NCBI GenBank assembly: GCA_036389795.1
Contig: DASVWD010000059.1
Coordinates: 1 to 62,421 of the forward strand
Reading direction: 5' to 3'
DNA: 62,421 nucleotides
From: Longimicrobium sp.
GTDB lineage: Bacteria > Gemmatimonadota > Gemmatimonadetes > Longimicrobiales > Longimicrobiaceae
The notes beneath the pieces were generated by a model. It did not search any database and was not told where the DNA came from. It worked only from the letters and a program-made list of their open reading frames with translations. The stretch's first letter is position 1, and every line of letters starts with the position of its first letter. The translations under genes and the position numbers were made by a program. Below, piece by piece: positions 2,574 to 4,585 of the stretch.

Positions 2574-3404
2574 TCACCCCCCGCCCTCCGGCGGGGGGCC
2601 CGGCGCGCCCCCGCGCTCGACCCGCTTGACCTCGTCCCACAGCCGGTCCAGCTCCTGCAGCGTCGCCTCTCCCAGCACCACGCCGCGCTCGGCCGCCAGG
2701 CGCTCCAGGGCGCCGAAGCGGCGCGAGAACTTCTGGTTCGCGCGCGACAGCGCCGACGTGGGGTGCGCGCCCGCCAGCCGGGCCAGGTTCACCACCGCGA
2801 AGAGGAGGTCGCCCAGCTCCTCCTCCAGCTCCTCGTGGCGCCCCTCCTCCAGCTCGCGCCCCACTTCCTCCGTCTCCTCGCGCACCTTCTCCCACGCCCC
2901 GCGCGCCTCCGCCCAGTCGAACCCCACCCCCGCCACCCGCTCCTGGATGCGGTAGGCGCGCAGCAGCGGGTCCATCCCCGCCGCCAGGCCGTCCAGCACG
3001 CCCCCGCGGGGGCGCCGTGCGCGCTCGCGCGCCTTGACCTCCTCCCACGACTCGGGCTCGCCGTCGCCCCACAGGTGAGGGTGGCGTCGGCGCATCTTTT
3101 GCTCCAGCACCGCGACCACGTCGCCCCGCCCGAACCGGCCGGCCTCCTCCGCGATCACCACCTGGAACGCCAGGTTCAGCAGCAGGTCGCCCAGCTCGTC
3201 GCAGAGCGTCTCGGGGTCGCCGGAGGCGATCGCCTCGGCCACCTCGTGGGCCTCCTCGAGCAGGTGCGGCTGGAGCGAGAGGGAGGTCTGCGCCCGGTCC
3301 CAGGGGCAGCGCGCGCGGAGGAACTCGACCAGCGCCAGGGCGCGGTCCAGCACCCCGCCGGAGGGGGAAACAGATGACGGGAAGTCGGGTTGCGGGCCAG
3401 TCAC
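2574..3404 (-). CDS. mazG: MazG nucleoside triphosphate pyrophosphohydrolase
   Basis: A 276-aa protein with two tandem all-alpha MazG domains. The first carries EEAHEVAEAI and DELGDLLL (about residues 50-75); the second carries EETEEVGRE and EELGDLLF (about 170-205). These acidic EExxE/ExxD pairs bind Mg2+. The family hydrolyses NTPs and dNTPs to monophosphate plus pyrophosphate, cleaning damaged nucleotides and lowering (p)ppGpp in some bacteria. The start is a GTG placed only 9 bases after a TAGTAT -10 box, so its mRNA may be leaderless. It diverges from alr. Confidence 0.95.
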   Translation of the reverse strand: MTGPQPDFPSSVSPSGGVLDRALALVEFLRARCPWDRAQTSLSLQPHLLEEAHEVAEAIASGDPETLCDELGDLLLNLAFQVVIAEEAGRFGRGDVVAVLEQKMRRRHPHLWGDGEPESWEEVKARERARRPRGGVLDGLAAGMDPLLRAYRIQERVAGVGFDWAEARGAWEKVREETEEVGRELEEGRHEELEEELGDLLFAVVNLARLAGAHPTSALSRANQKFSRRFGALERLAAERGVVLGEATLQELDRLWDEVKRVERGGAPGPPPEGGG

Positions 3405-3418
3405 AAGGCGGCTATACT
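3390..3418 (+). promoter_or_regulatory. Promoter of alr, leaderless type
   Basis: TTGCGG (3390-3395), a 17-base spacer, then TATACT (3413-3418). The GTG start of alr begins 10 bases after the -10 box, about where transcription should start, so no leader or Shine-Dalgarno would be present. The -10 overlaps that of the opposing mazG promoter by five bases. Confidence 0.65.
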
Positions 3419-3442
3419 ACCGAGTTTGTGTCCGATCCGCAA
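3414..3442 (-). promoter_or_regulatory. Promoter of mazG, mirror image of the alr promoter
   Basis: On the minus strand: TTGCGG (3442-3437), 17-base spacer, TAGTAT (3419-3414), 9 bases, then the mazG GTG. The geometry is the same as on the other strand. Confidence 0.6.
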
Positions 3443-4585
3443 ACCGACCCGTCGCGCGCCTGGGTGGAGGTGGACCTCGCCGCCCTGCAGCGCAACCTGC
3501 TCCGCGTGCGGGCCGCCGCCCCCGGGGCGGGGCTCGTCCCCATGCTCAAGGCGAACGCCTACGGGCTGGGGACCGCCGCCGTGCTCGGCGCCGTCCGCGA
3601 GGCGCTGGCGCCCGACGGGCCGTGGGCGGTCGGCGTGGCGGCCGTGGCCGAGGGAGAGGCGCTCCGCGCGCTGGGGTGGGCGGGGCGCGTCGTCGTCTTC
3701 GCCCCCGCCCCCCCGGCCGAGTACCCCCGCGCCGCCCGCGCCGGCCTCGCCCTGGCCGTCTCCGAACTGGACGCGGCGGAGCGCTGGGCGGCGTGCGCGC
3801 GGGAGGCGGGGAAGCGGCTCGCCTTCCATGCCGAGATCGACACCGGGATGGGGCGCGCCGGCTTCCCCGCCGGGGCGGCCGCCGAGTGGGGGCCGCGCCT
3901 GGCCGCGCTCACCGGGGATCTTTTGGCCTGGGAAGGGTGTTTCACGCACTTCCATTCGGCCGACGAGCCCGACCTGGGGCCCACGGACGAGCAGGTGCGC
4001 CGCTTCCGGGCGGCGCTCGCGCTCCTGCCGCCCGAGCCGGAGGGAGCCCCGCGGCGGCTCCTCCACTGCGCCAACAGCGCGGCGGCGCTCAGGCGCGGGG
4101 GGTACGGGATGGACCTGGTGCGCCCGGGGATCTTCCTCTACGGCGGCGCCGCGGGGCCGGGCGTCGTTCCCGAGCCCGTGGCCGCGCTCCGCGCCCGGGT
4201 GGGGCTGGTGCGCCGGGTGCCGCCGGGGCACACGGTGGGGTACGGCGCCACCTACGCCGCCCGCCGGGCGGAAGTCTGGGCCACCCTGGCCGTCGGCTAC
4301 GGCGACGGCCTCCCGCGCGCCCTCGCGCCGGCCGGGGGGGAAGCCCTCCTGAACGGCAGGAGGGCGCCGCTGGTGGGTCGCATCTCCATGGACATGACCG
4401 TGGCGGACGTGACCGACGTCCCCGGCGTCCGCGCGGGCGACATCGCCACCCTCTTCGGCCGCGACGGGGCCGGGGAGATCGGCGTGGACGAGGTGGCGGC
4501 CCGCGTGGGTACCATCTCGTACGAGATCCTGACGGGCCTGACCGGCCGCCTGCCGCGCGTGTACGCGGGCGGCTCCAACCCATGA
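3428..4585 (+). CDS. alr: Alanine racemase
   Basis: A 385-aa PLP enzyme that interconverts L- and D-alanine for peptidoglycan. The PLP lysine lies in MLKANAYGLG near residue 40. Other family motifs are the barrel segment HAEIDTGMGRAGF, HCANSAA, the RPGIFLYGG strand, GYGDGLPRAL and the catalytic-Tyr-domain stretch GRISMDM. Length is typical. The GTG at 3428 precedes RAWVEVDLAAL directly, where alr proteins normally start; an upstream ATG at 3374 would lie inside the promoter and mazG. The stop overlaps the next start (ATGA), making alr the first gene of a four-gene coupled operon with envelope genes. Confidence 0.96.
   Translation: MSDPQTDPSRAWVEVDLAALQRNLLRVRAAAPGAGLVPMLKANAYGLGTAAVLGAVREALAPDGPWAVGVAAVAEGEALRALGWAGRVVVFAPAPPAEYPRAARAGLALAVSELDAAERWAACAREAGKRLAFHAEIDTGMGRAGFPAGAAAEWGPRLAALTGDLLAWEGCFTHFHSADEPDLGPTDEQVRRFRAALALLPPEPEGAPRRLLHCANSAAALRRGGYGMDLVRPGIFLYGGAAGPGVVPEPVAALRARVGLVRRVPPGHTVGYGATYAARRAEVWATLAVGYGDGLPRALAPAGGEALLNGRRAPLVGRISMDMTVADVTDVPGVRAGDIATLFGRDGAGEIGVDEVAARVGTISYEILTGLTGRLPRVYAGGSNP

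Follow-up and report, generated by a model that had tools for sequence, protein, structure and literature searches.

The 53 bp at the junction of the divergent genes mazG and alr in a Longimicrobium sp. very likely constitute one sigma-70-type bidirectional promoter from which both mRNAs would begin leaderless or nearly so. The window, meaning the whole stretch of DNA analysed, is a complete contig of 62,421 nucleotides (DASVWD010000059.1) from an assembly of 7.5 Mb. Named Gemmatimonadota, including Longimicrobiales, are the relatives recovered with the Alr protein of the window as the query, and the divergent order of the two genes is retained in most of the loci examined in the phylum. The profile matches lie well above their cut-offs for both alr (TIGR00492, 254 bits against 168) and mazG (NF007113, 266 bits against 208, with a further match to Pfam MazG). 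The literature search found nothing relevant on a mazG/alr promoter or on a start-site map of Gemmatimonas.

Bidirectional promoters are common, and the general question is whether two-way activity is selected or a mere consequence of the symmetry of the -10 element. The junction makes this question testable: it can be traced through many genomes, some of which carry naturally one-sided forms, and the seventh base of its core reports the second direction. It is also a compact case, in which two genes have their promoter and start-codon DNA in common.

Anatomy of the junction

On renewed reading, the sequence agrees to the base with the original prediction in its promoter boxes, spacings, five-base overlap of the -10 elements and GTG starts (Table 1). 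On the forward strand, TTGCGG (3390-3395) is followed after 17 bp by TATACT (3413-3418) and after a further 9 nt by the GTG of alr (3428-3430). The reverse strand carries TTGCGG (3442-3437), 17 bp, TAGTAT (3419-3414), 9 nt and the GTG of mazG (3404-3402), with positions 3414-3418 common to both -10 boxes. The predicted mirror symmetry, TTGCGG-N17 on both sides, stands for the window but is local: apart from G015, in which the identity of the hexamers is nearly kept, the mazG side of the other family copies mostly reads TTGACG with an 18-bp spacer.

Table 1. Coordinates of the genes and putative promoter elements at the mazG/alr junction
Feature	Position	Strand	Basis
mazG, nucleoside triphosphate pyrophosphohydrolase	2574..3404	-	GTG start, 276 aa; NF007113 and Pfam MazG
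-35-like box of alr, TTGCGG	3390..3395	+	Sequence; family conservation; inside mazG codons 4-5
Predicted mazG transcription start zone	3404..3408	-	Inferred; 7-bp rule gives 3407, 18 bp from 3425
Pseudo-symmetric core TANNNTA (TATACTA)	3413..3419	both -10 boxes	Sequence and conservation
-10 box of alr, TATACT	3413..3418	+	Sequence; T1, A2 and T6 invariant in 19/19 copies
-10 box of mazG, TAGTAT	3414..3419	-	Sequence; A at 3419 invariant in 19/19 copies
Predicted alr transcription start zone	3424..3428	+	Inferred from -10 position; 7-bp rule gives 3425
alr, alanine racemase	3428..4585	+	GTG start, 385 aa; TIGR00492 and Pfam; start fixed by relatives
-35-like box of mazG, TTGCGG, 17-bp spacer	3437..3442	-	Sequence; conserved block 3438-3444
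Alternative mazG -35 register, TTTGCG, 18-bp spacer	3443-3438	-	Register of the TTGACG of relatives

The proposed mechanism starts from the core TANNNTA, which would be read as TANNNT on either strand; base pair 3414 would then serve as the -11A of alr and the -7T of mazG, and base pair 3418 as the reverse. Each direction would have its own -35 element, located within the initial codons of the gene on the other side. RNA polymerase would bind in one of the two orientations and start transcription at sites about 18 bp apart, 0 to 5 nt before each GTG, which would leave both mRNAs leaderless or nearly so. Basal firing would be low and free of strong mutual interference, a regime that is predicted in the same way as the activity itself and the exact start sites. 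With the optimal distance of 7 bp between the -10 element and the start (PMC12825309), the predicted starts fall at 3425 and 3407, and their separation of 18 bp is the commonest start-to-start distance of bidirectional promoters in Escherichia coli (PMC12825309). Distances of about 10, 18 or 23 bp between divergent starts characterize promoters of this kind.

Background frequencies were obtained from about 0.7 Mb of the same genome and 0.8 Mb of G009. In the sampled genome, the frequency of TANNNTA is about 1e-4 per position, and 3e-4 outside called open reading frames, giving an expectation of about 0.2 to 0.5% per 23-bp gap. Boxes of the TTGC/TTGA type at 16 to 18 bp on both sides accompany one of the 71 TANNNTA sites in 0.71 Mb. 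Among 53 and 59 sampled divergent gene pairs of the two genomes, respectively, the short-gap arrangement occurs only at mazG/alr. The junction arrangement is not a product of chance, and the case for it rests above all on its conservation. The bare pattern CAY-N8-TANNNTA-N8-RTG was rejected as a genome-wide signature; it is too weak alone, with 3 matches across 7.5 Mb compared to control counts of 2 for each strand, and its match on C139 lies inside a called gene. Another two-sided match, TTGTACG..GGTATACTACG or TTGTACG..GGTATGTTACG, recurs in three genomes of the genus (G000:C87:1299-1352, G008:C54:88455 and G002:C28:76059).

Start codons and leader length

Both GTG codons are very probably the real starts, because in-frame stops close the upstream frames and, in several relatives, each GTG is the sole possible start on its side (L008, L010, L013 and L018). 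In the window and in relatives with the core TATACTA, the mazG frame is closed by the TAG of TAGTAT, 15 bases before its GTG. In relatives with TAGAATA, the alr frame likewise contains a TAG 15 bases before its GTG; in the closest relatives (L002-L005), this stop belongs to the -10 element TAGAAT itself. A start of alr at the upstream ATG 3374, with GGAGGGGG before it, is excluded by the close relatives that carry an in-frame TAG before the GTG.

The distance between the two GTG codons is 24 bp throughout the family; G019 and G011 alone differ, with extra sequence between alr and the junction. In G019 (L016), the GTG at the conserved position (9 nt) is out of frame with alr, and a second, in-frame GTG follows 19 nt downstream; the separation of promoter and start may have arisen by insertion or duplication, or may be an assembly error. 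In G011 (L015), the conserved GTG is followed by tandem repeats of about 36 bp and reads into TGA, and alr must start further down.

No Shine-Dalgarno sequence is found at the alr start (0/19 family copies) or at the mazG start (0/19), in agreement with the earlier claim that both are lacking one. The gap of 9 bp between the -10 box and GTG on either side (15 bp from the first T) is compatible with leaders of 0 to 5 nt, since it exceeds the 6 to 7 bp that separate the -10 element from the start codon in leaderless genes of Deinococcus (PMC12340547). The first T of TANNNT is expected about 12 bp before the start codon of a leaderless gene. Transcription is likely to start 0 to 5 nt before each GTG.

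The usual start mode of the genome was assessed only on genes with a unique possible start, since the simple gene caller places starts poorly; at the junction, its own choices are 3464 and 3353. A TANNNT element 11 to 16 bp upstream was found in 0 of 78 such genes of the same genome and in 2 of 79 of G009, without a peak. Shine-Dalgarno cores precede 50% of the unique-start genes of the same genome and 34% of those of G009, compared to 15% and 10%, respectively, inside genes. Widespread leaderless translation in the genome is rejected on the missing TANNNT peak and the enrichment of Shine-Dalgarno cores. Since leaderless genes do not form a recognizable class in the sampled genome, the junction as predicted is an exception to the usual start mode, and a doubly leaderless junction would be unusual there.

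Conservation within the family

The families are labelled f1 to f5, f1 being that of the window. Its alignment comprises 19 alignable copies from 17 genomes; G011, which shows the same core and boxes, was left out. TTGC, both start codons and the core bases T1, A2, T6 and A7 are the fixed positions in all 19 copies. The core itself varies (TATACTA, TAGAATA, TATGTTA, TATGCTA, TACAATA and TATCATA), and each variant retains T1, A2, T6 and A7, which is what two overlapping -10 boxes, as predicted here, require. Overlapping -10 elements on both strands (TANNNTA at 3413-3419 in the window) are accordingly present in 19/19 copies. The original prediction expected the overlap and the 9-nt spacing to persist in related genomes; within the family, both are kept, and both -35 blocks are nearly constant.

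The TTGC of the -35 element of alr is found in 19/19 copies and TTGCG in 18/19, despite their position in codons 4 and 5 of mazG. The far-side block CCG(T/C)(C/A)AAC is present in nearly all 19 copies, and the intervening bases are variable; the -35 block of mazG is the more variable of the two. Within the alr -35 element, mazG uses the Gln codon CAA in every copy, compared to a share of CAA among Gln codons of about 2% in two sampled genomes and 3.5 to 10% in codons 2 to 11. Because CAA is universal here and rare genome-wide, the pattern points to a constraint on the DNA rather than on the protein. In G002, the mazG/alr junction occurs three times in one assembly (contigs C82, C109 and C116), two of the three at contig ends, which may reflect mixed strains or a duplication.

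Instead of promoter boxes, the conserved blocks could form an operator through which a regulator controls both genes, and conservation does extend to the GGCC adjoining the core, but this is very improbable given spacings of 17 and 16 to 18 bp around TANNNT, which form a promoter pattern, and half sites that differ (TTGCG versus TTGACG) in most species.

Distribution beyond the family

Searched across the phylum, the pattern TTGC-N19-TANNNTA-N15-19-GTCAAY is present in 61 of 395 genomes, against few matches in the control. Of 30 loci retrieved, 26 have the match where it would be expected, at alr and/or mazG. Two further samples of 30 alr loci each were chosen by protein alone, ignoring the promoter, and comprise the top-scoring protein hits of an f4 query rather than a random draw; in these, both directions (core TANNNTA and both -35 boxes) are present at mazG/alr in 24/30 loci of f4 and 12/30 of f5. 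Family f3 mostly keeps the gene order, with a one-sided core, CATCTTT, 8 to 9 bp before ATG. Where the symmetry is absent, a -10-like box of alr is still there (TATACT/C, TATCTT or TAGCTT). The original prediction expected the boxes to persist in relatives with the same gene order; they do so in the family of the window, but many relatives that retain the order lack the mazG side.

The junction has been retained in many genera of the Gemmatimonadota. Judged from these sequences, the bidirectional arrangement appears to be ancient in the class, the alr direction being its constant part. We infer repeated loss of the mazG side rather than gain, based on the distribution and not on a rooted species tree.

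In f4 (e.g., L294 and L308), mazG probably starts at an ATG inside TTGCAT, the -35 element of alr, and in many species GGAGG is located just upstream of this probable ATG on its strand. Relative to f4, the mazG start in the family of the window appears to have moved towards the core, with the Shine-Dalgarno sequence absent. The f3 signal at alr is a strongly conserved, one-sided start signal: among 154 genomes of the order, 42 carry CATCTTT-N8-ATGNNNAC at the start of alr, one copy each (e.g., L029, L206, L208 and L210).

Selection on the mazG direction

Core base A7 is used only by the -10 box of mazG. A -35-like box of mazG is present in 57 of 64 loci with A7, compared to 4 of 20 without it (Fisher P 1e-8, uncorrected for kinship). 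Conversely, 57 of the 61 loci that have the mazG box carry A7, compared to 7 of the 23 that lack it, the box being defined by the authors' own criterion. Both -35 blocks are conserved, and A7 and the mazG -35 element are kept together. The case for selection on the mazG direction, drawn from these sequence comparisons, is good but not final.

The most serious alternative, although unlikely, is that only alr uses the promoter: mazG would be transcribed from elsewhere, and its boxes would be a by-product of the -10 symmetry and of the N-terminal codons of alr (RTG-TCA-AC). The alr side is indeed better kept, since a -10-like box lies near the alr start without symmetry in f3 (CATCTTT), f5 (TATCTT) and f2 (TATACTC). 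TCAAC is conserved in f3 as well, where the mirror is absent, which indicates that a different constraint acts on part of the mazG -35 block. However, A7 is useless to alr and yet is present in 19/19 family copies and tracks the mazG -35 element in wider relatives. The GTG of mazG in the family also stays 24 bp from that of alr without a Shine-Dalgarno sequence, and the block containing CAA stays 16 to 18 bp from the -10 box, whereas its distance to the alr start varies between families. A promoter serving both genes remains the preferred reading.

Coupling of the two directions

The original prediction held that polymerase can fire in only one direction at a time. This part is sound: because the -10 element is shared, two polymerases cannot occupy it together. 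It went on to suggest that mazG is wired against alr, i.e., that exclusion couples the expression of the two genes inversely and trades nucleotide-pool cleaning off against cell-wall precursor synthesis. Such an antagonistic switch, which would add to the bidirectional promoter rather than replace it, is quite improbable. In its favour, a shared -10 element makes steric exclusion inevitable, and activated bidirectional promoters of E. coli can repress the opposite RNA (PMC12825309). At basal activity, however, 5/5 E. coli bidirectional promoters show no competition, which arises only on strong activation (PMC12825309). The junction boxes are of moderate quality, the analysis found no activator site, and many relatives with the same gene order lack the mazG side; the weak-looking boxes and the E. 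coli results leave the wiring claim unsupported. Because the two promoters match 8/12 and 7/12 consensus positions (own count, E. coli consensus), the junction should lie in the weak regime, by analogy with E. coli results carried to another phylum; neither promoter passes a scan for 9/12 matches to the E. coli consensus. Antagonism of mazG and alr under activation is possible by the same analogy.

A wider proposal is that the shared polymerase site has been selected across the class because coupling of the outputs, through exclusion or noise reduction, is useful, the start codons of the family having moved towards the core until all elements lie within 53 bp. This is speculative and rather unlikely.

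Relation to known promoters

By anatomy and conservation, the junction is very probably a compact form of a known kind of promoter and not a new kind of switch. It resembles the leaderless genes with TANNNT (Zheng 2011, PMC3160421; Deinococcus-Thermus, PMC12340547) in the -10 element directly upstream of the start codon and in the missing Shine-Dalgarno sequence. It differs from them in a gap of 9 bp instead of 6 to 7 bp and in its doubling head to head, and the pattern is not common in the genome of the window. It also resembles the bidirectional promoters based on -10 symmetry (Warman et al. 2021 Nat Microbiol, as cited in PMC12825309; Warman et al. 2026 NAR, PMC12825309), with a shared pseudo-symmetric -10 element that admits one polymerase at a time, the starts being predicted here at a distance of 18 bp. 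Compared with those promoters as described there, the junction also has a -35 element in both directions, encloses both start codons within the promoter footprint and keeps its arrangement across families of one class, with promoter activity predicted in this case.
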